DNA of 64,000 bases from a virus, in the IMG/VR virus record IMGVR_UViG_3300021961_000075, positions 1 through 64,000 of that record, one strand, 5' to 3'. The notes under the pieces were generated by a model, which was not told the origin of the DNA, ran no database searches, and worked only from the letters and a program-made list of their open reading frames with translations. Of the stretch, positions 1-64,000 are shown one piece after another (the first letter of the stretch is position 1; each line of letters starts with the position of its first letter). Made by a program: the position numbers and the translations under genes.

Positions 1-1
1 T

Positions 2-32
2 ATTATCCTATAGCGATCGTAATTAGTCTGAA
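2..32 (-). promoter_or_regulatory. early promoter motif, copy A
   Basis: On the minus strand it reads TCAGACTAATTACGA, nine bases, then GATAATA. It keeps the ACGA-N9-GATAAT core shared by all nine copies. It would drive a gene lying to the left of the window. Confidence 0.7.
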
Positions 33-104
33 CAACAGCAATGCCAGTGCCGCTTTAAACGTCCATACTAAGATCTGTATTGAATCTTCTTTGTTGCTTT
101 TCAT
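3..104 (-). CDS. 33-aa single-span membrane microprotein
   Basis: A 33-codon frame starts at the ATG at position 104, two bases beyond the stop of the next gene upstream. The N-terminus is polar and charged (MKSNKEDS). It is followed by about 23 mostly hydrophobic residues rich in Leu, Ala and Ile, so it looks like a one-span membrane peptide. The last codons run through the whole first copy of the early promoter motif, so the promoter lies inside the gene. I do not recognise a family. Support is the tight spacing and the clean membrane-protein composition. Confidence 0.5.
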   Translation of the reverse strand: MKSNKEDSIQILVWTFKAALALLLFRLITIAIG

Positions 105-105
105 A

Positions 106-375
106 TTAGTTTGGATTAGGGTTTACTAGTTCTTGCTCTTTACGTAGCTGCACGTCAATCGCTCCGAGGGCATAGATTACCTCGCACCATATTTCTACAG
201 CATCATACTTGAGACGCTCGTCAAAAAACTCTTCATCTAAATAGTTGTGCTTGATAAGCTCTTCGTATAAGAAATTCTCAGTCCACGCGTAATGATCACT
301 ACCGAAGTAGTCTTCATCGTCACATAAGAATTTGATGTGTTTTACTATTTTCCAGTAAAGTTTCTTTGGTTCCAT
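106..375 (-). CDS. small acidic protein of unknown function
   Basis: An 89-residue soluble protein, rich in Asp, Glu and aromatic residues, with no signal peptide or membrane span. It follows the 83-codon gene with only two bases between them, so the two are probably cotranscribed from promoter copy B. I see no known domain. Its position among leftward early genes suggests a role in host takeover, but nothing in the sequence shows a mechanism. Confidence 0.75.
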   Translation of the reverse strand: MEPKKLYWKIVKHIKFLCDDEDYFGSDHYAWTENFLYEELIKHNYLDEEFFDERLKYDAVEIWCEVIYALGAIDVQLRKEQELVNPNPN

Positions 376-377
376 AA

Positions 378-629
378 TTATTCTTTTTCAGTTACTAATG
401 CTAAACATAATTGAAAAGGATCTTCTATGTGCTCGAATACTTCATCTAATCTAAGTCGTAGTATTTCACACTCTTCGTCTGTAAAGGCGCGCTGATCTGT
501 AGCAAATTCTATGATATCTGCTGGATCGCTGTCAAAGTGAAACATGTTGTCATCAAAGTACAGTTCACATATGAATCTTTTAGCGTCCTTATCTGATTTG
601 ATTTTCTTATAAAAATAGTGTGGTGTCAT
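378..629 (-). CDS. small acidic protein of unknown function
   Basis: An 83-residue soluble protein, basic at the N-terminus (YFYKKIKSDKDAKR) and acidic for the remainder, with predicted helices in the second half (EECEILRLRLDEVFEHIEDP). The start codon overlaps the stop of the upstream zinc-ribbon microgene in an ATGA arrangement, which supports both starts and implies translational coupling. No family recognised. Confidence 0.75.
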   Translation of the reverse strand: MTPHYFYKKIKSDKDAKRFICELYFDDNMFHFDSDPADIIEFATDQRAFTDEECEILRLRLDEVFEHIEDPFQLCLALVTEKE

Positions 630-739
630 AACTCGTCTAGATTTATAAATTCACAGTGTTCCTTGCATCGTCCACAGATACCTAAATCTGGATTACTAAG
701 CCACGGTGATGCTCCGCAGCAATCTGATTCTATATTCAT
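626..739 (-). CDS. 37-aa zinc-ribbon-like microprotein
   Basis: Starting at the ATG at 739 the peptide has CCGA near the N-terminus, an ICGRC pair about 15 residues later, then HC. Two cysteine pairs on a short frame is the layout of tiny zinc ribbons common in tailed phages, and the CCGAxPWLS...CGRC arrangement is typical of that group. The stop overlaps the next start (ATGA). An alternative ATG at 751 would add four residues but overlap the gene upstream, so 739 is preferred. Metal binding is inferred from cysteine spacing only. Confidence 0.65.
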   Translation of the reverse strand: MNIESDCCGASPWLSNPDLGICGRCKEHCEFINLDEL

Positions 740-740
740 A

Positions 741-920
741 CTATAATTCATTATTATAAAATTCTACTTGTGCTACAAAGTCTGAGTAGATGTCAGCGAG
801 GTCTGTAGCGTCCTCGAAGTCACAGTTTTGGTAACAGAACATGAATAGTTCTTTGGGTGTGGCACTAGCGTTATCTCGCAAGGTGTCAGGATCGAAGTAA
901 AACTTGAATTTGTTGCTCAT
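741..920 (-). CDS. 59-aa acidic protein of unknown function
   Basis: Begins MSNKFKFYFDPDTLRD and has two isolated cysteines and many Asp and Glu residues. It is the first gene after promoter copy B, whose GATAAT lies about 19 bases upstream of the ATG. The short A/T-rich leader with no Shine-Dalgarno is the same as in the neighbouring early genes. Its stop is two bases from the next start. Function unknown. Confidence 0.65.
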   Translation of the reverse strand: MSNKFKFYFDPDTLRDNASATPKELFMFCYQNCDFEDATDLADIYSDFVAQVEFYNNEL

Positions 921-938
921 AGTTATTTAGTTTATTAT

Positions 939-969
939 ATTATCAAATAGTGATCGTAATTAGTCTGTA
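939..969 (-). promoter_or_regulatory. early promoter motif, copy B
   Basis: Minus strand TACAGACTAATTACGA, nine bases, GATAATATA. It drives the 59-codon gene and probably the run down to position 3. Its first ten bases form the end, including the TAA stop, of the 57-codon gene upstream. Confidence 0.75.
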
Positions 970-1133
970 TGCCACTTGTTCTGTTGTATAAACTCTATTA
1001 GTATTTCCTCAAGAGTAATCATTTGATCAGGTGATAAACCACCTTCATCTAAATTATAGTCTTCGCATATTGCTTGGAAGTCAATATACTTTTCAATTAA
1101 GTTTGCTTTTTCTAGTTCTTCTGTAGTGTACAT
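960..1133 (-). CDS. 57-aa acidic helical protein
   Basis: Starts MYTTEELEKANLIEKY and is predicted mostly helical and acidic. The last codons read CAT ACA GAC TAA, so the stop codon is supplied by the promoter copy B sequence. It follows the 49-codon gene by two bases. No family recognised. The compact spacing and use of the same leader style support a real gene. Confidence 0.65.
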   Translation of the reverse strand: MYTTEELEKANLIEKYIDFQAICEDYNLDEGGLSPDQMITLEEILIEFIQQNKWHTD

Positions 1134-1135
1134 AG

Positions 1136-1285
1136 TTATATTTTATTTGCTATTTTATTTAGTAGATCTATATCTTTTCTGTAATGCTCCATCCACATGG
1201 CATCAGTGAAGTCATCTGTCAAGTGCTCTAGTGAAAACTTCAAGTTCTCATATACAATTCTTGCTTCTTCTTTTGTTAGGCGCAT
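1136..1285 (-). CDS. 49-aa helical protein of unknown function
   Basis: Starts MRLTKEEARIVYENLKF, amphipathic and helical throughout with a basic end. It lies between the 57- and 66-codon genes with gaps of two and five bases, so it is probably part of the transcript from promoter copy C. No recognised domain. Confidence 0.65.
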   Translation of the reverse strand: MRLTKEEARIVYENLKFSLEHLTDDFTDAMWMEHYRKDIDLLNKIANKI

Positions 1286-1290
1286 AGTGA

Positions 1291-1491
1291 TTATCTTAAG
1301 GTGAATGACTCAGTTAAGTATTTTTCATTGATTAAAGTAAAGCCTTTGTAGTTTAGCCATGAGCGAACTGGTGCTTCCGAGGTAACTTCTGCAAAGTGCT
1401 TAGGTAATGAACCCACCTTAAATACAAAGTACCTAGTGTGGTTTAACTTGATGTACTTGTTTTTCTTGTTAGCAGTTAATTTAATTTTCAT
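1291..1491 (-). CDS. 66-aa basic protein of unknown function
   Basis: Lys/Arg-rich with a run of beta-prone segments (TRYFVFKVGSL, KGFTLINEKYL). It is the first gene after promoter copy C, whose GATAAT is about 27 bases upstream of the ATG. The leader is A/T-rich without a Shine-Dalgarno. Small basic early proteins often bind nucleic acid or host proteins, but nothing here proves this. Confidence 0.7.
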   Translation of the reverse strand: MKIKLTANKKNKYIKLNHTRYFVFKVGSLPKHFAEVTSEAPVRSWLNYKGFTLINEKYLTESFTLR

Positions 1492-1517
1492 AATGAGTAG
1501 TTTAAATGTTCATATAT

Positions 1518-1548
1518 ATTATCAATGAAGCATCGTATTTAGTATGTA
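1518..1548 (-). promoter_or_regulatory. early promoter motif, copy C
   Basis: Minus strand TACATACTAAATACGA, nine bases, GATAATATA, upstream of the 66-codon gene. The first box differs from consensus by one base (TACATA instead of TACAGA). The ACGA-N9-GATAAT core is exact. Confidence 0.75.
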
Positions 1549-1627
1549 TAAAGTGGATAGCTTAGTTATACTTAGAAAAGTAAGGAGTGTCATAACACCA
1601 CGCTTCAAGGTGTGAATTATAAAAAGT

Positions 1628-1672
1628 GTGACATTAGCCTTATAGAATATCCTTAGTAGGGGCTATTGTCAC
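1628..1672. repeat. long imperfect hairpin, copy 1 (possible leftward terminator)
   Basis: The arms GTGACA-T-TAGCC and GGCTA-T-TGTCAC pair over 11 bp around one T-T mismatch and enclose a 21-base loop containing ATATCCTTAGTAG. A second copy lies at 3846-3890 with the same loop in the same orientation. Five A residues flank it on the left, giving a T-run after the hairpin on the minus strand, so it could stop leftward transcripts from the 1754-1972 gene. The rest of the 1492-1753 gap holds promoter copy C and nothing else I can identify. Confidence 0.65.
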
Positions 1673-1753
1673 CCTATTTCTTCGTAGTAATTCTGGTGAA
1701 AGCAAAGCGAAGTGCTATACACGCTCCGTCAGGAGCAATGTATTTTTTACTCG

Positions 1754-1972
1754 TTACTTGATGATAAGGTCACGAGCAAAGGTTGGAACATTATTCGTAG
1801 CGGTGTAAGATTTGTACTTCTTAAAACACTCCATGCTTTCAAAGCGATCTTTGTTTGCTTTGTATACTTCATCATGATTGTACTTGAATGTTTCACCTTT
1901 CTTAGTGGTGAACTCAATTACTTCTTTTTTCCCGAGTAATGATTTTCTGATTACGAAGCGATTTGTTTTCAT
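1754..1972 (-). CDS. 72-aa early protein, paralogue of the gene at 3412-3630
   Basis: A 72-residue basic protein that aligns end to end without gaps with the product at 3412-3630. Shared blocks are MKTxRFVIRK, ANKD, MECFKKYKSYT and PTFAR. It sits directly after promoter copy D. The pair clearly arose by duplication, and the conserved central block points to the functional surface. No outside family is recognised. Confidence 0.8.
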   Translation of the reverse strand: MKTNRFVIRKSLLGKKEVIEFTTKKGETFKYNHDEVYKANKDRFESMECFKKYKSYTATNNVPTFARDLIIK

Positions 1973-2018
1973 AGTAATAAAATTTAAGTTATAATTAATT
2001 TAGTTTAAGTTCAGAATT

Positions 2019-2049
2019 ATTATCTCATTGATCTCGTATTAACCCTGTA
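2019..2049 (-). promoter_or_regulatory. early promoter motif, copy D
   Basis: Minus strand TACAGGGTTAATACGA, nine bases, GATAATAAT, serving the 72-codon gene at 1754-1972. Immediately upstream is GTGTATAGCA, also found upstream of copy G. The rest of the interval to 2167 has no gene I can support. Confidence 0.75.
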
Positions 2050-2167
2050 TTGCTATACACCTTGAGGTAGGCGCATGACGGAGTCTACTCTTCCGACCCT
2101 ATTTCAAAGCCAGGCGCTAAAGGTGCAACGACTCTACTTCGCTACACCCTGTACCATGTATGAGTTA

Positions 2168-2599
2168 CTATTTTCTCATGTGTAACTCTAGTTGTATTCT
2201 ACCGATGCAGAACAGTAGCATTTGCATTACTGCTTCATCATACGTTATGTCTTCAAGTTCCATTAGACCGTCGTAGTCAAAACCATTGTATGCTTCAGCA
2301 CCGAACAATTCGAGATCATATTCTGCGATACTTAGTATTGCTGTAACCTCTGCGGTTTCATAATACTTATTGATGTAGAAACTACATGTACGCTTAAAGA
2401 TCTGTAACACTGTTTCTAAACGCTCTGTAGTATCTGTACATGTTATATTACCAAGTAAACTGTATGCGAATACTTCTGTTACAGCGTCTGTATCTACTGT
2501 GATATCGACTGTTTGATCATTGTCTTCGTTGTAATCTCGGTGAAACAAAAGTTGTGTTTTGATCTTGTTAAACTCATCATTGATAGTAAATGTTTCCAT
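2168..2599 (-). CDS. 143-aa acidic protein of unknown function
   Basis: The largest gene of the early block. It is strongly acidic, with helical segments throughout, three cysteines (one in ITCTDTTE, one in KRTCSFYINKYY, one in LLFCIGR) and a hydrophobic helix near the C-terminus (VMQMLLFCIGRIQLEL). There is no signal peptide. It is preceded directly by promoter copy E. No family recognised. Confidence 0.8.
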   Translation of the reverse strand: METFTINDEFNKIKTQLLFHRDYNEDNDQTVDITVDTDAVTEVFAYSLLGNITCTDTTERLETVLQIFKRTCSFYINKYYETAEVTAILSIAEYDLELFGAEAYNGFDYDGLMELEDITYDEAVMQMLLFCIGRIQLELHMRK

Positions 2600-2630
2600 A
2601 GTTATTAAATTTAGTTTAGTTATTAATTTA

Positions 2631-2795
2631 TTATATTATCTTACCTATTTCGTGTTTAATCTGTTCTATCTTTCGATCGATCAGATCATTTATTTCATCT
2701 TCACTCCAGTCATCATACTCTTGTATGTATAGACTGTGTAGTTCATCTCTAATTTCATCTTCATTTTCTTCGATGATGTAGTTAAATATTCTCAT
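2631..2795 (-). CDS. 54-aa acidic microprotein
   Basis: Starts MRIFNYIIEENEDEIRDELH, very acidic in the first half and basic at the end, helical throughout. Its last codons AAG ATA ATA TAA are the -10-like part of promoter copy E. It follows the 25-codon gene by five bases. No known family. Confidence 0.6.
   Translation of the reverse strand: MRIFNYIIEENEDEIRDELHSLYIQEYDDWSEDEINDLIDRKIEQIKHEIGKII
2635..2665 (-). promoter_or_regulatory. early promoter motif, copy E
   Basis: Minus strand AACAGATTAAACACGA, nine bases, GATAATATA, upstream of the 143-codon gene. The motif lies wholly inside the 3' end of the 54-codon gene. Its GATAATATAA supplies that gene's final codons and stop. Confidence 0.75.
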
Positions 2796-2800
2796 AGTGA

Positions 2801-2878
2801 TTATTGATTATTTAAAATATATTCTACTAAGTCGTTTTTGTCCCATTCCATTAATTGGTCATAAGTGAATTGTTTCAT
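2801..2878 (-). CDS. 25-aa microprotein
   Basis: A very short frame (MKQFTYDQLMEWDKNDLVEY and five more residues) located where a first gene is expected after promoter copy F, about 34 bases from the GATAAT. It has the same A/T-rich leader as its neighbours. The only argument for a gene is position and spacing, so it could also be a leader peptide. Confidence 0.4.
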   Translation of the reverse strand: MKQFTYDQLMEWDKNDLVEYILNNQ

Positions 2879-2912
2879 AGTGATTGATTTAATTTAGTTA
2901 TTAATTTATTAT

Positions 2913-2943
2913 ATTATCTTGTTGTACTCGTATTTATTCTGTA
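2913..2943 (-). promoter_or_regulatory. early promoter motif, copy F
   Basis: Minus strand TACAGAATAAATACGA, nine bases, GATAATATA, very close to the consensus. Its first ten bases are the end of the 53-codon gene upstream (ATT ACA GAA TAA). Confidence 0.8.
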
Positions 2944-3095
2944 ATAATATACTGGATGTTATAGATATTATTCTCTTGATTCTCTTCTCTGTGTTCACAG
3001 TGTTCACTGAAATCGTCTATTTTACTTTCATCTAATGATTCATAAAAGTTGTTTAGATTAGTGAATCCAATGATTTGTAATTCTACATGTTTCAT
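2934..3095 (-). CDS. 53-aa acidic protein of unknown function
   Basis: Starts MKHVELQIIGFTNLNNFYES, then a charged acidic stretch with HCEHREE, and ends YIITE. The stop TAA lies within promoter copy F. The gene is placed directly after promoter copy G. No recognised domain. Confidence 0.65.
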   Translation of the reverse strand: MKHVELQIIGFTNLNNFYESLDESKIDDFSEHCEHREENQENNIYNIQYIITE

Positions 3096-3140
3096 AATGA
3101 TTAATTTAATTTAGTTATTATTTATTTTTTATTCAAATAT

Positions 3141-3171
3141 ATTATCTCAATATACTCGTATTTAATCTGTA
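3141..3171 (-). promoter_or_regulatory. early promoter motif, copy G
   Basis: Minus strand TACAGATTAAATACGA, nine bases, GATAATATA, driving the 53-codon gene. GTGTATAGCA lies immediately upstream, as at copy D. Confidence 0.8.
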
Positions 3172-3192
3172 TTGCTATACACACAGGGTGTG

Positions 3193-3351
3193 TTATTCAA
3201 TGTTGAAGATCTCATCCAGATGGTATCCTTTGTTACGTACTATGTACATTACAAAATTGTTGAGGTGTATTTCACTGAAAAAACTTTTACGGATCGTCCA
3301 ACGTTTTCCTTTGTCAGTTATAAATTGTAATTGTACTCTAAAGTTTTTCAT
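3193..3351 (-). CDS. 52-aa basic protein of unknown function
   Basis: Starts MKNFRVQLQFITDKGKRWTI and is basic with alternating hydrophobic residues that suggest beta strands. No promoter copy precedes it directly, so it is probably read from copies H and I through the 72-codon gene. Function unknown. Confidence 0.6.
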   Translation of the reverse strand: MKNFRVQLQFITDKGKRWTIRKSFFSEIHLNNFVMYIVRNKGYHLDEIFNIE

Positions 3352-3411
3352 AATGTTTTAAGTTAAAGTTTTACATATTGTACATAGATCCCCGAAGGGT
3401 GGGAGTGTAGT

Positions 3412-3630
3412 CTATTCGACTACGAACTCCCGAGCAAATGTAGGTAGGTTGTTTGTTGATGTGTACGACTTGTACTTTTTGAAACACTCCATACCTTCGA
3501 ACTTATCTTTGTTCGCTGTGTAGACTTTGTCGTGATCATACTTAACGACTGATCCGTCTTTCTTTTGGAATTCAACTACGATTCCTTTACCGATGAGGTT
3601 TTTTCTGATAACAAATCTTTTAGTTTTCAT
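3412..3630 (-). CDS. 72-aa early protein, paralogue of the gene at 1754-1972
   Basis: Same length as its paralogue and alignable without gaps, with MKTKRFVIRK at the start and MECFKKYKSYT in the middle. It is the first leftward gene after two promoter copies, so it may be among the earliest and most strongly expressed. A 12-bp hairpin with a two-base bulge (3401-3412 pairing with 3418-3431) overlaps its stop codon and may terminate or stabilise the transcript, though no T-run follows. Function unknown. Confidence 0.8.
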   Translation of the reverse strand: MKTKRFVIRKNLIGKGIVVEFQKKDGSVVKYDHDKVYTANKDKFEGMECFKKYKSYTSTNNLPTFAREFVVE

Positions 3631-3677
3631 AAGTGTAAATTTAATTTAAGTTAATTATTTAGTTTTTATTCATTAGT

Positions 3678-3708
3678 ATTATCTCATTTAAGTCGTAGCC
3701 AGTCTGTA
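3678..3708 (-). promoter_or_regulatory. early promoter motif, copy H
   Basis: Minus strand TACAGACTGGCTACGA, nine bases, GATAATACT, upstream of the 3412-3630 gene. It diverges from consensus in the middle of the upstream box but keeps the ACGA-N9-GATAAT core. Confidence 0.7.
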
Positions 3709-3769
3709 AAAACCTAAAAACTTTCAGTGAAACAACACTAATAAGGGGCCCGTGGGGCTTTTCAAAGTC

Positions 3770-3800
3770 ATTATCACAATAGGGTCGTATTTGCTCTGTA
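3770..3800 (-). promoter_or_regulatory. early promoter motif, copy I
   Basis: Minus strand TACAGAGCAAATACGA, nine bases, GATAATGAC. It lies 92 bases behind copy H with no gene between them, so the two look like tandem promoters for the leftward block. Confidence 0.7.
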
Positions 3801-3801
3801 T

Positions 3802-3819
3802 AGGTATAACACTATACCT
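3802..3819. promoter_or_regulatory. perfect 7-bp palindrome, possible operator
   Basis: AGGTATA, four bases, TATACCT lies directly behind promoter copy I, at the divergence point between the leftward early block and the rightward structural block. The placement suits a repressor or activator site. It could equally be a chance AT-rich palindrome. Confidence 0.35.
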
Positions 3820-3845
3820 CTTATCATCTAACAATTATTTTTAGG

Positions 3846-3890
3846 GTGACAATAGCCTTTAAAGATATCCTTAGTAGAGGCTAATGTCAC
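3846..3890 (+). terminator. long imperfect hairpin, copy 2, with T-run
   Basis: GTGACA-A-TAGCCT pairs with AGGCTA-A-TGTCAC (12 bp around one A-A mismatch) over a 19-base loop with ATATCCTTAGTAG, followed by ACTTTTTT. It resembles an intrinsic terminator reading rightward, but no rightward gene lies before it within the window apart from the promoter region. It may insulate the structural block or be a shared structured element, given its copy at 1628-1672. Confidence 0.6.
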
Positions 3891-3941
3891 ACTTTTTTAA
3901 AATGTTTTTAATTCAAGTAATTAGCATGTGATTATAGACTT

Positions 3942-4181
3942 ATGAAACAAAAACTATCTGCAAAAGCTGCGGCCGCAAAAAAGGCCAGGGATTTAGCCTA
4001 TGCTAAAACTGATCGTCGGCGTGAAATGAAAGCTGAGAATCAGAGGAAGCGTCGTGCGGCAAAGAAAGCAGGGAAAGACATTAACGGCAAAGACTATGAC
4101 CACACAACTAGAAGGTTTGTATCAGTTAAGGCAAACCGCGGTGGACATGGCAAAGGCACAAGGAAAAACAATACTAAGTAA
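3942..4181 (+). CDS. highly basic 79-aa protein
   Basis: Lys, Arg and Ala make up most of this protein (for example KAAAAKKARDLAYAKTDRRR and RKRRAAKKAGKD), so it should bind nucleic acid. It is the first rightward gene, nine bases before the first fibre gene. The second half has KDYDHTTRRF and a Gly/Lys-rich tail. There is no zinc motif. It might be a DNA-binding virion or packaging-related protein, but I do not recognise a family. Confidence 0.75.
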   Translation: MKQKLSAKAAAAKKARDLAYAKTDRRREMKAENQRKRRAAKKAGKDINGKDYDHTTRRFVSVKANRGGHGKGTRKNNTK

Positions 4182-4190
4182 ACTAAACTA

Positions 4191-7175
4191 ATGGCAAGGA
4201 TAAGTAGTTACAACAAGGACAACGGGCTTACAGGCAACGATCTTCTTTTAGGCTCTTCGTTTGAGGGCAACATTAATGGTGTTCAAAAATACGCAACGCG
4301 CACATACAGGTTGTCTGACCTTGCGACATACTTTGGTGGATTTGTAAATGGTATAGATCTTAATGACCTGCTAGGCAGAATTGGAGACCTAGAAAGCAGT
4401 ATTAGTATTATATCTACTACGATAACAAACAACACGACGGCTATATCTATCGCAAATCAAAGTATAACTACTATAACAAACGAGCTGCTGTCGCAGTCTA
4501 CTTTCCAAACAAACCTATCTTCTACATTTGGAACATTTGATGAAAATGGTAATTTAACGTCGTTATCTCAAGCGTTCGCAGATCAAGTACTTCAAACAAC
4601 CGCGTCAGATAGATATGCCAACGCACAGTTCGTTACCAACCTAGCTGCATCAGTAGGTACATATGACGAAAATGGTAATTTAATTACTTTAGCAGAGGCC
4701 TTTGCAAACCAAGTACTGCAAGTAACTACAACAGATAAGTTTGCAACATCCGAGTTCGCCACGAACTTGGCAGCATCGTTTGGTACGTATAACCCCGACG
4801 GGACACTAGCTACTATCTCTGAAAGCTTCGCAAACCAACTACTGCAAGCATCGACAGCATCTGACTTTGCAGACGCGCAATTTGTGACAACGCTTGTAAG
4901 TAACTTCGGTACATTCGACGAAAACGGCAACTTACTCACTGTATCAGATTCTTACGCGAACCAGATACTATCAACAGCCAATACGTCTGAGTTTGCACAA
5001 GCTGAGTTTGTAACCAACCTAGCAAGTAGTTTTGGTACTTATGACGCTAATGGTAACCTTACGGCTATTTCTAGTTCTTTTGCCGATGATGTATTAAGCA
5101 CCGCTAATACCTCTGAATTTGCAGAGGCAAGTAAGCTTACTAATCTAGGTGCTTCATTTGGAACGGTTAATCCTGACGGCTCCGTGTCTTTTAGTAATAC
5201 CTCAACATATTCAAATCAAATATTAAACTACGTAGATAGCAGTTCTGCTCTTGCAACGCAGTTATCAAACTTACAGTCACAGGTTACAAATATACCTGTT
5301 ACGTTGCGTCAAGACGATGAGCCTGGTATATTAGATGGTAATAATGATCTTATTTATCCTCTTGGTTCTATATGGATTGACACAAATGATAGTAATGCTA
5401 TTTATATTCTTATTGAGGACGCGGGTGCACCATCAGGTTATTCATGGTCACCAACAACATCTGAAGCGTTAGGTGATCTTATATTAAGTAACGCACAGTT
5501 GCAAGATGATGTATCATTACTTGCCGATGATTTAAGTGCAGAAGGAACAAAACTTACAACACTAACGGCACAATTTGGTGTTTACGATCCTGTAACAGAC
5601 ACGTTTACAATAAATAATAATTCTAATGTAATAGCATCACTTAGAACATATGCTGATGCGGATTCTACTTCAGCTAAAAAAATAGATGGTATAAACTCCG
5701 TGTTTAACATGGTTGACGCTAATGGTAATGTAATTAAAAACTTAGCTACATTCAACCAAGAGATAACAACTTATGTAGATGCTAATTCAGCAGTAGCTGG
5801 AAGAGTTGATACACTAGAAGCAGAAGTAGGCGATAATGCTGCGGCCATCACAGCGGAGCAAACAGCAAGGGCAACAGAAGACGCCGCCATAGCATCAAGT
5901 GTTAGTAATTTAACAGCAACTATAGGAGATGAAAACTCTGGGTTAGTTGCGAGTGTTCAACAAGCATCAGAAGCGGTTGCTAGCTTAGAAGAAGGTCTTA
6001 AAGCGTCTTACGCTCTTACTGTTGGCGCAGGAAATGCTATATCAAGCATGAAATTACTTGCAGAAGATCCAAACCAACCTGGTCTTCCACCAACTTCTTC
6101 TATTATATTCAACACTAATAACTTTAAAATACAAAACGGTAGCGGTGTAGATCAATTCACAATTAACACGACTACTGGTAAAGCTGTTTTTGCAGGTAGC
6201 TTGCAAGGTGTAGATGGTACGTTTACTGGTAGACTTACTGCCGGAGCTGTTGATATATACAGTGATAATATAGCTATAAATATTGACTCGCTTGGTGGCC
6301 AGATAAAATTTGTAGACGACGCCGGAAACGACCACACGACAATGACAGCTAGCGGTGCAACTGGTAACTTTAATTTAATATGCCAAGAAAATGTATCTTT
6401 ATTAGCTAAAGACGGATCTGGTAATACCGTGTCTACGCTTTTACTAACAACACCTTCAGCATGGTTAACTGGGGACAATGTAAGGCTTGTTGCTGACAAC
6501 AGCGTTTATCTTAGCGGTACAGGCCAATTATACTCTTCTGGCTTTGATAGCTTTTTATTTTATGCCGGCGCGCATAGATTACAAGGATCTTCAAGCAGCG
6601 GAATAACAATAGCTAGTGGAATTACAACTTTAACAGTTAATGAAACAGGTGTTTTTGTCAACGGGCAACAAATAACAACTGGCGGACCTACTACTGATAC
6701 AAACTACTACTTAAATGGCATAACAAGAAGTGGTGACACGTTAACGTTCTCTGTGGCTGGAACCGCAAGCCAGTCGTACACTTTTGGGGCAAACGCGTTT
6801 AACTCAACAACTATACCAACAAATAACAACCAGCTAACAAACGGCGCTGGATACATAACGACAACCGGTTCTTATACATTCACTGGCAGTTTAACGGCTC
6901 AAGATTTTATTCTTGGTTCTGATAGAATATTAAAAGAGAATATAAAAGAATACAAGCCAAAACCAATCAATATACAGTACAAGACGTATAATTTAATTGG
7001 GGACGAAAATAAACGTGTAGGTGTTATTGCCCAAGAATTAGAAATAGAACACCCAGAGTTTATTAGAGAAAACGAAAACGGTATTAAATCCGTATCATAT
7101 ATAGACATGCTTGTTGCAAAAGTTGCAGAGCTTGAAGCAAGAATAAAAGAACTAGAGCATGGCGGTACCAAGTAG
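4191..7175 (+). CDS. tail fibre with C-terminal peptidase S74 chaperone
   Basis: A 994-residue fibre. The N-terminus MARISSYNKDNGLTGNDLL resembles that of the 233-aa protein at 9712-10413 and may attach to the virion. Residues about 105-362 are six tandem repeats of about 43 residues (NLAASFGTYDENGNL...FANQVLQ pattern). A long stretch of beta-helix-like and coiled-coil sequence follows. The end carries the S74 intramolecular chaperone: SDRILKENIK, then VGVIAQELE, then a C-terminal coiled coil. In that family the serine of the SD motif is the self-cleavage site after trimer folding. Receptor specificity cannot be read from the sequence. Confidence 0.85.
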   Translation: MARISSYNKDNGLTGNDLLLGSSFEGNINGVQKYATRTYRLSDLATYFGGFVNGIDLNDLLGRIGDLESSISIISTTITNNTTAISIANQSITTITNELLSQSTFQTNLSSTFGTFDENGNLTSLSQAFADQVLQTTASDRYANAQFVTNLAASVGTYDENGNLITLAEAFANQVLQVTTTDKFATSEFATNLAASFGTYNPDGTLATISESFANQLLQASTASDFADAQFVTTLVSNFGTFDENGNLLTVSDSYANQILSTANTSEFAQAEFVTNLASSFGTYDANGNLTAISSSFADDVLSTANTSEFAEASKLTNLGASFGTVNPDGSVSFSNTSTYSNQILNYVDSSSALATQLSNLQSQVTNIPVTLRQDDEPGILDGNNDLIYPLGSIWIDTNDSNAIYILIEDAGAPSGYSWSPTTSEALGDLILSNAQLQDDVSLLADDLSAEGTKLTTLTAQFGVYDPVTDTFTINNNSNVIASLRTYADADSTSAKKIDGINSVFNMVDANGNVIKNLATFNQEITTYVDANSAVAGRVDTLEAEVGDNAAAITAEQTARATEDAAIASSVSNLTATIGDENSGLVASVQQASEAVASLEEGLKASYALTVGAGNAISSMKLLAEDPNQPGLPPTSSIIFNTNNFKIQNGSGVDQFTINTTTGKAVFAGSLQGVDGTFTGRLTAGAVDIYSDNIAINIDSLGGQIKFVDDAGNDHTTMTASGATGNFNLICQENVSLLAKDGSGNTVSTLLLTTPSAWLTGDNVRLVADNSVYLSGTGQLYSSGFDSFLFYAGAHRLQGSSSSGITIASGITTLTVNETGVFVNGQQITTGGPTTDTNYYLNGITRSGDTLTFSVAGTASQSYTFGANAFNSTTIPTNNNQLTNGAGYITTTGSYTFTGSLTAQDFILGSDRILKENIKEYKPKPINIQYKTYNLIGDENKRVGVIAQELEIEHPEFIRENENGIKSVSYIDMLVAKVAELEARIKELEHGGTK
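4503..5277 (+). repeat. six tandem protein repeats of about 43 codons in the fibre
   Basis: Within the 994-codon fibre gene, the units share TNLxxSFGTYDxNGNL, a variable segment, then FANQxLQ or a close variant. DNA identity between units is imperfect, so these are diverged repeats rather than a recent expansion. They probably form a repeating rod segment. Confidence 0.75.
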
Positions 7176-53882: not shown

Positions 53883-53917
53883 AAAAGGGAGATCGAAAGA
53901 TCCCCCTTTATTTTTTT
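53881..53917. terminator. bidirectional terminator between converging modules
   Basis: GGGAGATC, GAAA, GATCCCCC (one mismatch, GNRA tetraloop) is flanked by AAAAAA on the left and TTTATTTTTTT on the right. It can end both the rightward lysis transcript and the leftward replication transcript. Confidence 0.88.
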
Positions 53918-55685
53918 ATCCGTCACATGATAAGCAATCCGGATCCATTGCCTTTGTAGCAATATCTCCTCTTAACACTGATTCGGTTCGCATGTAATAC
54001 AACGTTTTAATTCCTTTTTTCCAAGCTTCCAAATGAACTTGATTTATCCATTTAGGCGTAGCCACAGAGGGAAACGCGAGATTCAAAGAAACAGACTGAT
54101 CAACATACTGCTGGCGAATACCAGCTTGGTTAACGAGCTCGAGCTGATTTATCTCTTTGAATGTTTTAAATACGTCTTTTATTGTATCAAATCCATACTT
54201 CTCAATATCTTCAGCAGACTCAGATAGCTTTACAAGTTTACCTTGTACATATCCGTAATCTTCAAGCTCTGCAATATCTTGAACAGATCCTTTATCTTCT
54301 AATATCTTGTTCCAAGTCTCAGTGGTATTAATACCTATCTTTTTGAAGACTTTTTCTAACTCTTTATTTTTTCTAATAAATGTTCCTTTAGCAGACTGTT
54401 CTGTAAACACGTTTGCAGCCCAAGGTTCTATGCCCGGCGATACGTTTCCAGAAAGTTTTGAATTAGATACCGTGGGTGCAATAGCTCTAAGGTGTGTATT
54501 TCTAAACCCTGTATCCCTACACCATAATGGTTCTCCATATACCTCAGCAAGGTCACGGGAAGCTCTCTCTGATTCAATTTTAAGTTGACTAAAAACGCGT
54601 CTTGTTTCAAATTGTGCCTGCATACCCTCAAATGGTATTCCTTTTTGCTGTAAATAAGTGTGCCATCCCAGAACTCCCAAACCAAGAGCCCTTCCCTTTT
54701 CGGCACTACGCACACTATTTTCAAAGCCTTTAAGCCCTTTCGCCCGCTGAATAAACTCTTCAAGTACGCCATCCAAAAACCAAATACTGTGGTATATAAG
54801 GTTAGTGTCTTTCCATTCATCATATTTAGCTATATTAACTGAACTAAGACAACATACAAAACTATGGTTTTCATCCGTGTGTAATGTTATCTCAGAACAT
54901 ATATTTGTCATATGAACTTTAAGTCCGTTGTCTTTGTATGCTCTTGGATTACTTTTATTTGTATTTCCTTTAAAAAGGATATAAGGTTCTCCAGTTGCTT
55001 TACGTTTTTGTAATAGCTTTCCCCATCGCGTCCTAGCATCAATATCTCCTTGTTCAAGTCTTCGCATAAACTTATCACCGACCACAGCGCACTGGTGGAG
55101 ATTGAGCGACTGTCTATTAACGTCACCTTTTGGCTCTCTAATCTCAAGCCAGTCCAAGAAATCGGGGTGGTCAATATTGATATTAACTGATGCTGCTCCT
55201 CGTCGGACAGATCCTTGATTAGTGGCAAGTATAGTTGAATCGTAAATCTTGCAAAACGGCACCACTCCGTCAGATGTTCCATTGTTTGTTATTTTAGCTC
55301 CGGCAGGACGAATCATATTGATGCCTATACCAACTCCCCCACCGTGTTTAGCTAGTAGCATCATTTCTAAGTTTTTAGCACCAATCTCTTGAATACTATC
55401 ACCTACATCAATACCAAAGCACGATATAGGTAATCCTCGATCAGTACCTGTATTTGAAAGAACTGGCGAAGCTAGATTTAGCCAGCCCTTCCATATATAG
55501 TCAAAAAATACTTCAGCAAGTTCCGGTTTGTACAACCTTCTAGCAACAGTTGACGCAACTCGCATATACGCATCTCTTGGGGTTTCCCATGGTAACAAGT
55601 AACCTCCTGTTATTGTTTTTTTGTATACATCGGTATCGCCCCAAATAGGGTAATCCTCGCCTTTAATCCAATCGTTATTCCACAT
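53916..55685 (-). CDS. nrdA: ribonucleotide reductase class I, large (alpha) subunit
   Basis: Start at MWNNDWIKGEDYPIWG (589 residues), because the frame extends 23 codons into the nrdB gene. Catalytic features: CFGID and NICSEI (thiyl Cys in the N-x-C-x-E loop), the FVCCLSSVNI Cys, the radical-transfer Tyr pair in LYYMRTES, and a C-terminal CLSC pair for thioredoxin-type reduction. It is short and lacks an N-terminal ATP cone, so it should not be shut off by dATP. It converts NDPs to dNDPs with the NrdB protein. Confidence 0.9.
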   Translation of the reverse strand: MWNNDWIKGEDYPIWGDTDVYKKTITGGYLLPWETPRDAYMRVASTVARRLYKPELAEVFFDYIWKGWLNLASPVLSNTGTDRGLPISCFGIDVGDSIQEIGAKNLEMMLLAKHGGGVGIGINMIRPAGAKITNNGTSDGVVPFCKIYDSTILATNQGSVRRGAASVNINIDHPDFLDWLEIREPKGDVNRQSLNLHQCAVVGDKFMRRLEQGDIDARTRWGKLLQKRKATGEPYILFKGNTNKSNPRAYKDNGLKVHMTNICSEITLHTDENHSFVCCLSSVNIAKYDEWKDTNLIYHSIWFLDGVLEEFIQRAKGLKGFENSVRSAEKGRALGLGVLGWHTYLQQKGIPFEGMQAQFETRRVFSQLKIESERASRDLAEVYGEPLWCRDTGFRNTHLRAIAPTVSNSKLSGNVSPGIEPWAANVFTEQSAKGTFIRKNKELEKVFKKIGINTTETWNKILEDKGSVQDIAELEDYGYVQGKLVKLSESAEDIEKYGFDTIKDVFKTFKEINQLELVNQAGIRQQYVDQSVSLNLAFPSVATPKWINQVHLEAWKKGIKTLYYMRTESVLRGDIATKAMDPDCLSCDG

Positions 55686-55689
55686 ATTT

Positions 55690-56658
55690 TTAAAATAAAT
55701 CGTCCCAGTCTTCTCCTTCGTTTGCTTTAGAATAATCTGTAGGTCTAATAGCAAAAAAGTCAGTGTGTGTTACTCCTCCAGTTAAATGATAAAACCACTC
55801 AAGATTGTCTGCTGCTTTTGAGTCGTAATCAAAATAAGCATTTAGTTCTGTGTACCCAAGCTCAATAAGCTTTTCATTTAAACGTTTTTTAATAAACTGC
55901 TTAAGATCATAAGACTTGAGGTTTTCAATATCTCCCATCTCAAACATTTTGTCAATATAATTCATTTCTGCATCATGCATCGCGTCAGCAGCAGCAACTA
56001 CGTCTTCTCTACACGCGCTCAATAAGTCTGGTTGCTCTTCACACATATGCCTAAATAATTGGCAACCCATCTTACTGTGTAAGCTTTCGTCTCTCACACT
56101 CCATTTCATTTGTTGACCAATACCTTTAAGAAGATTACGAAGCTGAAAACTATACAACACAGCGAACGCGCTATATAGAGAAACACCTTCTGCAAACGCA
56201 GAAAATATAGCTAAACTTTTACCAATACCAACACGGTCGTTGTTTTCACATGCTACAAGGTTTTCAAATCTTTCCATTGTTGCTGGATCATGTAAGAAAG
56301 CCTCAAAATCATCAAGCCCAAGTGTTTCGTTTAAGTACGAGTAAGCTACAGCATGGATAGTTTCTTGACTACCAAACATCATAGCCATTTGTTGTATTTC
56401 GTGTTTAGGAAACCAACTAACTACCTTTTGTGTCCAATAATCAGATACCGCACACTCTGTCTGCGCAAAACCAAGCAGTATATTACCAACTAAATTCTTT
56501 TCAGATTTATTTAATTTTTCGTTCCAGTCTTTAACATCACCAGACATTGGTATCTCAGTGTGCAACCAAAATGCCTGTGCTTGTTTTAGCCAACCTTCTG
56601 TATAATAAACTGGATACTCAAAAGGTTTATAGGCTACACGTTCATCAAATAATCCCAT
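55690..56658 (-). CDS. nrdB: ribonucleotide reductase class I, small (beta) subunit
   Basis: A 322-residue R2 protein. Metal and radical residues are visible: ETIHAVAY contains Glu, His and the radical Tyr with normal spacing (E-x2-H-x3-Y), and RDESLHS has the second Glu/His pair. It lies upstream of the large subunit with a four-base gap once nrdA starts at its internal Met. It generates the tyrosyl radical for the reductase. Confidence 0.92.
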   Translation of the reverse strand: MGLFDERVAYKPFEYPVYYTEGWLKQAQAFWLHTEIPMSGDVKDWNEKLNKSEKNLVGNILLGFAQTECAVSDYWTQKVVSWFPKHEIQQMAMMFGSQETIHAVAYSYLNETLGLDDFEAFLHDPATMERFENLVACENNDRVGIGKSLAIFSAFAEGVSLYSAFAVLYSFQLRNLLKGIGQQMKWSVRDESLHSKMGCQLFRHMCEEQPDLLSACREDVVAAADAMHDAEMNYIDKMFEMGDIENLKSYDLKQFIKKRLNEKLIELGYTELNAYFDYDSKAADNLEWFYHLTGGVTHTDFFAIRPTDYSKANEGEDWDDLF

Positions 56659-57881: not shown

Positions 57882-58717
57882 AATTGCTTTACAAATGTTC
57901 CATTAGACATTTTACCTTTTCTACTTTTAATTACGTTATAAGCTGATGTGACGCAATCCTCAATATCAACACCAACGAATACTGCAAGGTTAGTAAGAAC
58001 AACAACCATATCGCCAATTGCATCAACGGCTTCTTCTTTGTTTTGTTTAAGTATAGCCTGAGCAAGCTCTCCGGCTTCTTCCATAAGTTTAACATACTGC
58101 GTTTTTTCATCTCCTTTATCATATATGCCACGTTCATCTGCCCATTGTCTGATCAATGGAAATATATCCCTCATTGACGGGCCGATAGTAGACTTATCTG
58201 GCATCGTTAGACCTCCTATAAGGGACTTTTCATCGTTGAACTGATCCATAGGACCTCCCTGAATAAAAGCCTCATAAAAAGCCTTATTATATATGTAGCA
58301 ACGATCGGGTGTATATTGTGATCTGAATATATTGCTTATTATCCAGCGATTAGCTTCTTCTGTTAACTCAAAATGACCCAGATGTGTTGTCCAAGTATGA
58401 CCTATATTTTCTTCTAAGAAAGCAGGAAGATCATCTATTGAAACAGGAAACGTCGTTGTTTGTTCTGTTGCATTTAATTTCATTTCTTTATTATTTAGAT
58501 TTTTATATAGTTTACGATCTACTTTATAACCATACATCTGTTGAAGCTCTATTTCTTTAATTGAAACCTCATCTATATCTTCTGTCGTAAGAAGTATTTC
58601 ATATTGGTTAGGTTTATATCCTTGCTGCTGCTCAACTCTCAACCTGGGATTTGTTGTCACACCAACTTTCTGGCCTGGTATATGGTAAATATAATATTTT
58701 TTATTAGAGTCTGTCAT
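57878..58717 (-). CDS. fusion of GIY-YIG-like domain and MazG pyrophosphohydrolase
   Basis: Start MTDSNKKYYIYHIPGQKVGV (279 residues). An upstream Met would extend into the synthase gene. Residues about 5-75 resemble a GIY-YIG fold (YYIYHI, KVGVTTNPRLRV, with E in KEIELQQMYG). The C-terminal half is a MazG domain: LMEEAGELAQAILK and VDAIGDMVVVLTNL with the EExxE...ExxD metal ligands, replaced partly by D. MazG enzymes hydrolyse NTPs to NMP plus PPi. The GIY-YIG part may be inactive. Confidence 0.7.
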   Translation of the reverse strand: MTDSNKKYYIYHIPGQKVGVTTNPRLRVEQQQGYKPNQYEILLTTEDIDEVSIKEIELQQMYGYKVDRKLYKNLNNKEMKLNATEQTTTFPVSIDDLPAFLEENIGHTWTTHLGHFELTEEANRWIISNIFRSQYTPDRCYIYNKAFYEAFIQGGPMDQFNDEKSLIGGLTMPDKSTIGPSMRDIFPLIRQWADERGIYDKGDEKTQYVKLMEEAGELAQAILKQNKEEAVDAIGDMVVVLTNLAVFVGVDIEDCVTSAYNVIKSRKGKMSNGTFVKQL

Positions 58718-59363
58718 TGTATAGGTGTAAATTGTTAACAAAGTGATAGTATTGACCAACGTCAATAGACAGCCTCTGAGCTACAAGTTGTTGCAGCTTT
58801 GAAAAGCAATACTGGTCATTAGGAAAACCGTACCATAAATCATTGGAACGCATCATAACGGACATGTAGAGTTTATTGTCCATTATATAAAAGTTTACGG
58901 CATAAGTACAGGGCGTATCAAAAGCATAATCAATGTTTTCTTTAGCATCATAGATGCTTATAGAGGCTTGCCGTGTTTGCGGATCGCGTTCAAGAAGATT
59001 AATTACATATTCAAGTTGATTATTACGTCTCCATTGTGATCCATAATTAGAATTTACGCGCCCATTTTCATCAGCCATACGCTGCCAAATAGCTGGTACT
59101 TTTCCGTATATTTCGCCAAGAGTAGAAAGCCTATTGTCACCTGATAAATACCACTCCCATTCAGCGTCAGCATACTTTTGGTTCCAAGGTCTATCGCGGT
59201 GATAAACAACATTATCTAATGGATTTTCAATCCAAAAACCTATATTAAATAAAGCTTTTGTGTTTTGAAATTTAATACCACTGTGTTTAATAATTTCAAG
59301 CCAGTATTCAAACGCGTGAGTTGCATTTTCAAAGTTCGTCCTCAGGTCTATATTTGTTTGCAT
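58704..59363 (-). CDS. thymidylate synthase family enzyme, possible dCMP (hydroxy)methylase
   Basis: A 219-residue protein, shorter than the usual 264. By a constant offset of six to E. coli ThyA it keeps the nucleophile C152, R172/S173, D175, H213 and Y215 (E. coli C146, R166/S167, D169, H207, Y209). E. coli N177, which selects dUMP, is D183 here (GFPND). The same change marks T4 dCMP hydroxymethylase. It overlaps the neighbouring genes at both ends. It makes either dTMP or a modified dCMP with a folate cofactor. The second is favoured by D183 but unproven. Confidence 0.8.
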   Translation of the reverse strand: MQTNIDLRTNFENATHAFEYWLEIIKHSGIKFQNTKALFNIGFWIENPLDNVVYHRDRPWNQKYADAEWEWYLSGDNRLSTLGEIYGKVPAIWQRMADENGRVNSNYGSQWRRNNQLEYVINLLERDPQTRQASISIYDAKENIDYAFDTPCTYAVNFYIMDNKLYMSVMMRSNDLWYGFPNDQYCFSKLQQLVAQRLSIDVGQYYHFVNNLHLYNDRL

Positions 59364-61658: not shown

Positions 61659-62390
61659 CTATAATGTATTGGTTTCTAAATACTGTTTAGGGTCAAACCC
61701 TTCTGTTTTATAAAACAAATCATATATGTGACTTGCTCTTTGCACTTTATCTTCTCCTGCTAGATAAAAATTATCTGAACATTCAAATATATTAATTTTA
61801 TATGAAGTTTTGTCGATAGCAATAAAAATAAATTCATAGCCAAACAGGTGCCTGTAAATATAAGCTTGGCTATCGTAATTATACTTTTTAGCACTCCATT
61901 TAAAACCATCTATATCTGAGGTTGTCTTGATGTCAATGATAAGCTTTTCACTGTGGTTTACAATGTCAGCTTTTCCTTTCCATTTGTTTCCAAACAACTC
62001 TGTAACGCCAGGCTTTTCATATTCATTACCCTCTGCCTGAATAAGATCTCTACAAATATCGTTATCAAGTATAATATCCCTAAGCTTTTCAATAACATCA
62101 ACTTCATGTTGAAGCAGTATTAGTTCACCTTGAGATACCTCTTTGTATTCTTTATTGTTTCTGCTACTAGCCTTAACAACTTTAAACTTATGTAGTTTTT
62201 CAGGTTCAAGTATACACGTGTGTAAGTAACCGCCAATAAGCATTGGAACTGTTTTTTCGGTTGGCTTACCTAGATCTAACGGGTTTTTGAAAAGAGTACC
62301 AATATCAGAGTTTGATAGGTACTTCTTTCCAAATTCACCGTAATAGTCCTCGTCATTTTTCAGACGGTCAAGCGCTTTGGCTTGGCTCAT
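61659..62390 (-). CDS. PD-(D/E)XK exonuclease (RecB/RecE-like)
   Basis: A 243-residue nuclease. The core reads GKADIVNHSEKLIIDIKTTS, giving the D...D-x-K triad, followed by YDSQAYIYRHLFG with the Q-x3-Y motif of RecB-type nucleases. An N-terminal helix region (LSNSDIGTLFKNP) and MLIGGYLHTCILEP supply the conserved H. Such enzymes resect double-strand ends for recombination or attack host DNA. It pairs naturally with the next gene. Confidence 0.75.
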   Translation of the reverse strand: MSQAKALDRLKNDEDYYGEFGKKYLSNSDIGTLFKNPLDLGKPTEKTVPMLIGGYLHTCILEPEKLHKFKVVKASSRNNKEYKEVSQGELILLQHEVDVIEKLRDIILDNDICRDLIQAEGNEYEKPGVTELFGNKWKGKADIVNHSEKLIIDIKTTSDIDGFKWSAKKYNYDSQAYIYRHLFGYEFIFIAIDKTSYKINIFECSDNFYLAGEDKVQRASHIYDLFYKTEGFDPKQYLETNTL

Positions 62391-62811: not shown

Positions 62812-63564
62812 TTAATCATTTATAAAATCTAATACTTGGTTTGGGTCTACGTTATCTATTAGCTTATCAAGGGCTTCACGTTTAATCTGAGATACCCTAA
62901 CAAAGTCAGCAACACCTTGAATATCAAGTAGTTTTGCTATTTTTTTAGCAGGTATTTTATCACAGTCTAATCCGAAACTCATCCTCAACACATCGTATTC
63001 ACGATCGTTAAGGTATTCCCTCATCAAAGATAATATATATTTGTTAAGTAAGTTAATATTATATTCCTTTGATTTGTCTTCTATATCAAAAGGTTTTTCT
63101 TCGTCCTCGTTTTCATCTATACTAGAAAATATAGAGTTAAAAAACATTTCTACAAGCTCACGATCTTTTCCTTCGTTTTTACGTATCTCATTTAACTTGT
63201 GTTCGGGTATACGTATATCTCCCCTGTTAATGTCTATGTTGCGTCTAACGGATCCTTTTATTCGTTTTGATACAAAGCCTTTGATCTGTCTTTCTACATC
63301 ATCATTCATGTTTATAATGTTCCAGTCTAAACGATCTACAGCTGCTATTAATCCGTAATTAGCTTCTTGTATAATATCATTTATAGTCATTACGCCTGAT
63401 GCTTGATCTGATGTTGAAAATGTTCTTGCTATTTCCATGGCAAAAGGCATAAGTTTTATAATTAATTCGTCTCGTGTATATTCATTCCACGGTTTGTCTT
63501 CAGGCATACACGCCTCTAAGTCGCGTTTATACCTTAGATAATTTTCTAAGTTGTAATTCTTCAT
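62812..63564 (-). CDS. phage sigma-70-family sigma factor
   Basis: A 250-residue sigma factor. Region 2: IMTINDIIQEANYGLIAAVD-like core recognition helix (residues about 58-80). Region 3: RIKGSVRRNIDINRGDIRIP and KLNEIRK. Region 4: YLNDREYDVLRMSFGLD and the HTH KIPAKKIAKLLDIQ with VSQIKREALDKL. It overlaps the HTH gene by 38 bases. It should redirect host RNA polymerase to phage promoters. The repeated motif at 1-3.8 kb is the prime candidate target. Confidence 0.85.
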   Translation of the reverse strand: MKNYNLENYLRYKRDLEACMPEDKPWNEYTRDELIIKLMPFAMEIARTFSTSDQASGVMTINDIIQEANYGLIAAVDRLDWNIINMNDDVERQIKGFVSKRIKGSVRRNIDINRGDIRIPEHKLNEIRKNEGKDRELVEMFFNSIFSSIDENEDEEKPFDIEDKSKEYNINLLNKYILSLMREYLNDREYDVLRMSFGLDCDKIPAKKIAKLLDIQGVADFVRVSQIKREALDKLIDNVDPNQVLDFIND

Positions 63565-63997
63565 TTAATTGGTCTTTTTCTTTTTTCAATGTTTCTGGCA
63601 TGTTACGATATATAGTTCTTGTTGTTACGTTTAAGGCTTTAGACAACTTTTGTATTGTTATCTTTTCACCTTGCTCGTGAATATACAACATTATTTCATA
63701 TATATCACTCTCAGAAGCATTTTTATTTCGACCGATTAAACTTCCGGTAATTTTAAGTTTTTCTATTACGGTTAAACCTGTACCGTCTTTGAATATAACT
63801 TTTCTTAATTTATTTTTTGGTTGTGTATCTAAATCAATTTCTAAAACCTTCTTAAGGATGATGTCAAGATCCCTATCACTGATATTGAAACTGATAAAAC
63901 CATTGGATCTATTTGTAATAAACTTTGCAAGATCTATAAATTTTTCTTCTGTTAAACTTTGATTTAAATATAGTAAAACATATAAGTGCCAATGCAA
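63527..63997 (-). CDS. helix-turn-helix DNA-binding protein, possibly 5'-incomplete
   Basis: At least 156 residues. The C-terminal part has a clear HTH (KITIQKLSKALNVTTRTIYR) followed by a charged helix. The N-terminal 80 residues are mixed, with ISDRDLDIILKKVLEI. The Met chosen is three bases from the window edge, so the true start may lie beyond it. It probably controls gene expression or replication. It overlaps the sigma gene by 38 bases. Confidence 0.65.
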   Translation of the reverse strand: MHWHLYVLLYLNQSLTEEKFIDLAKFITNRSNGFISFNISDRDLDIILKKVLEIDLDTQPKNKLRKVIFKDGTGLTVIEKLKITGSLIGRNKNASESDIYEIMLYIHEQGEKITIQKLSKALNVTTRTIYRNMPETLKKEKDQLNEELQLRKLSKV

Positions 63998-64000
63998 AGA

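Follow-up and report, generated by a model that had tools for sequence, protein, structure and literature searches.

The DNA analysed here (the window) comprises 64,000 nucleotides, positions 1 to 64,000 of the 68,518-base viral record IMGVR_UViG_3300021961_000075 in IMG/VR. Two 45-base elements with inverted arms, site 1 (1628-1672) and site 2 (3846-3890), were described in an initial annotation as hairpins whose loop core has the same orientation in both while arms and flanking runs are mirrored. Base-by-base comparison bore out this description and its coordinates, the two elements differing at seven positions (7, 15, 16, 18, 19, 33 and 39). The 13-base core ATATCCTTAGTAG occurred exactly twice in the window, both times on the + strand. 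Position 7 and its partner formed a T-T mismatch in site 1 and an A-A mismatch in site 2, and an A-run (1621-1625) lay to the left of site 1 and a T-run (3893-3898) to the right of site 2. The outer arm of site 1 (1621-1640) was the perfect reverse complement of that of site 2 (3878-3897) over 20 nt, as was 1661-1676 of 3842-3857 over 16 nt. The expected count of the compound arm pattern in shuffled sequence was 0.00. A search of the remaining genome, suggested in the same annotation, revealed a third copy just beyond the window, at 64159-64202 in record coordinates.

Site 1, which reads A-A on the − strand, is a putative early-region operator located between two leftward early genes, approximately 84 bp upstream of an early-promoter motif with an exact match (1517-1543, − strand). 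Site 2 (+ strand) lies at the divergence of early and late genes. To its left are the early-promoter motif nearest to it (3769-3795, − strand, three mismatches) and that of the gene at 3412-3630 (3677-3703, − strand), and to its right a candidate late −10, TGTGATTAT, is present at 3927-3935 (+ strand), 36 bp from the site edge. The first rightward gene (3942-4181, + strand) codes for a basic protein of 79 amino acids (phrog_6437), homologues of which often begin with MAQKLSP or similar, and is probably the start of the late operon. It is followed by a gene for a 994-residue protein (4191-7175, + strand), the C-terminus of which presumably resembles an S74-type fibre chaperone. The third site covers the start codon of a gene for a 212-amino-acid helix-turn-helix (HTH) protein, here called the regulator (63527-64165 of the record, − strand, with 63527-64000 in the window). 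The next gene, overlapping it, encodes a phage sigma-70-family factor (62812-63564, − strand), and a PD-(D/E)XK exonuclease-like gene (DUF3799; 61659-62390, − strand) lies downstream in the same cluster.

We interpret the three sites as double-stranded DNA operators that the phage's own HTH regulator would bind in order to activate late genes, repress early genes and regulate its own operon with the sigma factor (probability about 0.75, judged from sequence comparisons). What was observed are the sites, their conservation, three contexts in which they recur, the synteny of regulator and sigma factor and arm variants that match between the sites of one genome. From these we infer binding of the sites by the 212-residue protein, the direction of regulation and the mechanism.

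Conservation in relatives, the lack of which was to have counted against the elements, was very strong. The pattern GTGACAWTAG-N(15-45)-CTAWTGTCAC, which favours exact arms, was present in at least 118 IMG/VR stretches, a count inflated by related sequences and taken from records that may be fragments. The lengths of these exact-arm sites clustered at 44-46 although 35-65 was permitted, and position 7 was A-A or T-T in 123 of the 124 sites listed although A-T was equally permitted. The A-A mismatch was nevertheless rejected as a universal feature, since it fails in the wider family, where the asymmetry often lies at positions 2 and 6 instead. A relaxed pattern gave no match in a 2 Mb reversed-sequence control, and a covariance model made from the sites found matches in all 35 genomes searched with it, with only 2-4 sites per genome where these could be counted. 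In the common form an AT-rich centre is enclosed by two inverted half-sites that are not identical, each about AAAASTGTGACAWTAG-N4-TTAnT; without the A-tracts the whole spans 44-46 bp. Read inward, and with the outer run, a half-site is about AAAAST-GTGACAWTAG-NNNN-TTAnT, and the A- and T-runs beside sites 1 and 2 can be taken as the outer ends of such inverted half-sites. No description of these elements or of the regulator was found in literature searches.

The sites recurred in three contexts: over the regulator start codon (R, the third site), where the leftward early genes diverge from the first gene read rightward (J, site 2) and, singly or severally, upstream of an early promoter (E, site 1). 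The early promoter of this phage group has the form TTACAAACTAAATACGA-N9-GATAATATAAATGTAA, or ACTAAATACGA-N9-GATAATA, with a spacer of 9 in 314 of 327 cases, and its pattern gave 372 matches against 21 in the reversed control. The record contained eleven such motifs, all leftward: nine lie in the window, at 1-3795 (− strand), and two at 65411 and 67757 of the record. Six of the nine are located between sites 1 and 2, as expected from the earlier remark that the pair flanks most of the early promoter array. The usual promoter of Bacteroidota is of the TTG/TAnnTTTG type, from which the group promoter with its almost fixed 9-bp spacer differs. At distal sites the early promoters pointed away from the site on one preferred side (43 cases versus 11 and 8), and of 33 sites that could be scored, 31 had the half with the better TTACT on the side opposite the early promoter. 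Motifs resembling a late −10 (TGTRAKTAT or a variant of it) were located 20-40 bp from the TTACT-type half in 33 cases and on the other side in 1. Their offsets fell mainly into two ranges, 21-26 (clustering near 24) and 33-36, a separation of roughly one helical turn. If the late −10 is assumed to end at −7, the site centres would be at about −62 or −72, where activators that contact RNA polymerase usually bind. An overlap of a site arm with the early-promoter −10 was also considered and rejected: relaxed matching gave a few cases that ended 9 bp within the site, and these disappeared once the upstream element was scored. In two related loci (L024:2569-2717 and L093:8143-8291) tandem distal operators were 103 bp apart, approximately ten helical turns.

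The regulator belongs to a family of proteins of 200-217 residues with more than 510 relatives in IMG/VR. Its HTH is C-terminal (residues about 158-189), all 30 members examined matched HTH_11, and searches of named families gave only this generic domain. Ten regulator loci came from contigs attributed to bacteria, though these contigs may be of phage origin. No relative was detected by tblastn in 50,697 GenBank phage records. The predicted structure had a predicted local distance difference test (pLDDT) value of 88 for the whole protein and was confident for the N-terminal domain (pLDDT 92). A fold search of the PDB with either gave no match at E ≤ 0.001, and residues 130-211 displayed generic HTH fold similarity only; a viral library yielded a single match, the unnamed A0A516MIB4 (E 6.5e-9, 28% identity). 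In all members of the first set the regulator ATG was inside the right arm as CTA-ATG-TCAC. Loci found by the protein alone served as an unbiased check on the exact-arm scan. Among these 90 loci, the right arm contained an ATGTC regulator start in 82, and the left arm was present as well in 80, for which about 1% is expected at random, and several of the remaining loci had a site just upstream of a later start.

The sigma factor was the next gene after the regulator in all 116 loci with room for it, often overlapping or abutting, and was followed by the exonuclease-like gene in 110. Its similarity to sigma-70 regions 2 and 4 was found with phrog_351 (E 3e-13); TIGR02937 (E 4.9e-10) was just below its cut-off and the Pfam models of the two regions were below theirs. 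The window's sigma factor is divergent and had no tblastn match among the GenBank phages. In 25 of 25 genomes that have both kinds of site, the distant sites shared the arm type (C at position 2 or G at position 6) of the site at the regulator gene (22 with both, 3 with neither), as one trans-acting reader would produce. The sites thus have the traits of a dimeric transcription-factor operator: inverted half-sites whose individual bases are kept across relatives, a cognate DNA-binding protein conserved together with them (80 of 90 loci) and sites co-varying in trans (25 of 25). The operator could instead be read by another factor, such as a host regulator or the sigma factor, the latter being just as tightly linked. 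This we regard as improbable, since the R site stands at the HTH gene's own start, as expected of an autoregulator, and a host factor poorly explains why arm variants agree within each phage genome.

Two asymmetries are superimposed in each site, one in how the centre is oriented (the TTACT side), the other in arm polarity (the A at position 7). Centre orientation is fixed relative to the early/late axis; arm polarity agreed with it in 23 scored sites and was opposite in 7. In sites 1 and 2 the centres are oriented alike with respect to the early genes to the left of each, in agreement with this rule, whereas the arm polarities are opposite. Their mirrored arms follow from this separate variation, and there is no need to assume an inversion event. 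Inverted arms around an oriented, asymmetric centre do resemble the sites of recombinases, and a role in recombination was among the earlier suggestions. A site for recombination, inversion or transposition, served by a tyrosine or serine recombinase or forming HUH-type hairpin ends, is nonetheless very improbable. No Phage_integrase (PF00589) or Resolvase (PF00239) domain was found in the record, which may be incomplete, and the copy at the regulator start codon was kept in nearly all regulator loci examined. The string HWH in this record's regulator would suit an HUH or REP-like hairpin system, which was rejected because the first H is K in nearly all homologues; most have KWH and only one H is invariant.

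The initial annotation also proposed paired terminators or a structured site for a protein and asked for compensatory changes in relatives. No compensation was detected, as the arms paired in 91.1% of cells against 90.7% in shuffles, and pairs changed on both sides numbered 2 against 2.1. Letter matches at positions 1, 2 and 6 were as expected under independence. The outer position −2 was anti-complementary, its letters matching in 14 sites where 36.8 would be expected, and complementarity at positions 11 and 18 likewise fell short of expectation. The anti-complementarity survived thinning to 70% identity and was weaker at 60%. Identical 10-base halves were absent from all 106 distal sites (31.5 expected) and all 81 regulator sites (16.6 expected). 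Given no compensation and no identical halves, the conserved object is most likely a double-stranded DNA operator, judged by these arm statistics, and not an RNA or DNA hairpin. The protein site of the earlier proposal is thereby supported, whereas its structured nature is not.

An RNA element acting in the transcript as terminator, translational operator or processing site would be favoured by the stable hairpins predicted on both strands (z −2.7 to −5.2), which also weigh against the operator reading, by the T-rich flanks of many distal sites and by the regulator copy covering the putative ribosome-binding region and start codon. Together with the missing covariation and the anti-complementary position −2, several observations make such an element unlikely. 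The sites occur on either strand, upstream of divergent promoters. A terminator scan called neither window site, the arms enclose a variable centre of 21 bp, the flanking A- and T-runs are accounted for as half-site ends, and the third copy overlaps a start codon, so that paired terminators are not supported. Comparison of 1-5000 with Rfam yielded nothing at E values of up to 0.5. The scan did make a terminator-like call on the + strand for a separate short inverted repeat, GCTCCGTCAGGAGC (1723-1736), between the gene at 1754-1972 and site 1.

The avoidance of symmetric operators raises the question of how a presumably homodimeric protein would read an asymmetric site. In one group GTGACATTAG was paired with GTGACAATAG, in another often with GCGACGTTAG. 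The operators may be obligately heterogeneous, with unlike half-sites paired and perfect palindromes excluded, which we offer tentatively; it could mean an asymmetric nucleoprotein complex, for instance with the regulator on one half and the regulator plus the phage sigma factor or RNA polymerase on the other. Operator polarity would then be encoded in base asymmetry and not in promoter distance alone.

Several points weigh against the operator reading as a whole. A simple homodimer does not explain the strict avoidance of identical halves. Shared ancestry is ignored in both the 25 of 25 concordance and the helical spacing, and the sites with the 33 offset are mostly from one lineage. The TTACT spacing in the window is off by one base. 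The terms early and late were derived from gene content and direction, and the promoters are predictions.

With these reservations, the circuit under the operator reading could work as follows. The regulator would be made early and bind the divergence site (site 2), where it would activate a late promoter with an extended −10 and no clear −35 and probably repress the divergent early promoters. Site 1 would mark another early promoter, and regulator bound over its own start codon at the third site would dampen the regulator-sigma operon. This would amount to a three-site regulatory circuit that brings together a new family of regulators, the operator they bind and the early-promoter code of many uncultured phages, a large group that apparently infects Bacteroidota. 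As the regulator-sigma pair and the operator are recognisable in raw sequence, early and late genes should be predictable in metagenomic phages.

In the Bacillus phage phi29 the early protein p4 binds imperfect inverted A-tract repeats between the early promoters A2c/A2b and the late promoter A3 (PMC3100819). It represses the early promoters and activates the late one, which has a poor −35; the halves of its sites are functionally unequal (PMC3100819). The phi29 switch also needs p6. The sites described here likewise lie between divergent early and late promoters, as predicted. They are 44-46 bp long, compared with CTTTTT-15-AAAATG for p4, carry strictly conserved GTGAC motifs and are also present at the regulator's own start codon. 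The regulator contains an HTH, its sequence does not match that of p4, and its operon includes a phage sigma factor. No p4 was among the PDB-chain sequence matches and no fold match was obtained, the missing fold match being compatible with p4 homology. By analogy the circuit most likely works like that of p4, with no sequence match between the two proteins, and we do not file the regulator as a p4 homologue. In lambda a few operators bound by CI and Cro control divergent promoters and the regulator's own gene, an arrangement shared by the small operator set here. The halves here, however, lie approximately 21 bp apart between 12-bp arms and are never identical, and family searches of the regulator returned only the generic HTH domain. 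A sigma-70-family gene in the early region recalls the phage-encoded sigma factors for middle or late transcription, such as SPO1 gp28 and T4 gp55, but here the gene of the new HTH regulator, with an operator at its start, invariably comes before it.

The regulator heads a cluster with the sigma factor, the exonuclease and single-stranded DNA-binding protein-like, primase and helicase-like genes, which together with the AT-rich site centres could indicate a replication initiator. Rep-type plasmid initiators autoregulate through inverted sites, those of the Rep_3 family through inverted half-sites that are also present elsewhere, and the distal sites would then be origins and the R site an autoregulatory operator. 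We consider this doubtful. The conserved adjoining partner is a sigma factor and not a helicase, and early promoters and the late −10 accompany the distal sites at preferred offsets and in a preferred orientation. No Pfam Rep_3 match was obtained for 30 members, and the repeats of 1-4200 included no iteron array. GC skew tracks the direction of the genes and is therefore uninformative on the origin. The replication role suggested for the hairpins received no positive evidence and is kept as a rival. Upstream of the regulator, a DnaA C-terminal-like HTH protein (65246-65680 of the record, − strand) and a GP88-family protein (64702-65307, − strand) are a possible lead to a replication origin.

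The portal protein was related, at less than 60% identity, to those of 87 phage records; almost all of these came from Flavobacteriia (Flavobacterium, Cellulophaga, Tenacibaculum and Maribacter). The host of this phage is therefore likely to belong to Bacteroidota, as judged from this portal type. In the portal-matched cultured relatives MW202828 and Maribacter phage Panino neither the regulator nor the sites were detected. Near sites 1 and 2, paralogous small basic proteins of 72 amino acids, 67% identical, are encoded at 1754-1972 and 3412-3630 (− strand), and relatives have one to four copies per locus in the early region. By sequence inspection, genes similar to class I ribonucleotide reductase subunits and thymidylate synthase were found at 53916-56658 and 58704-59363 (− strand), and the best phage matches of the 55690-56658 product were ribonucleotide reductase beta subunits of Flavobacterium and Cellulophaga phages.

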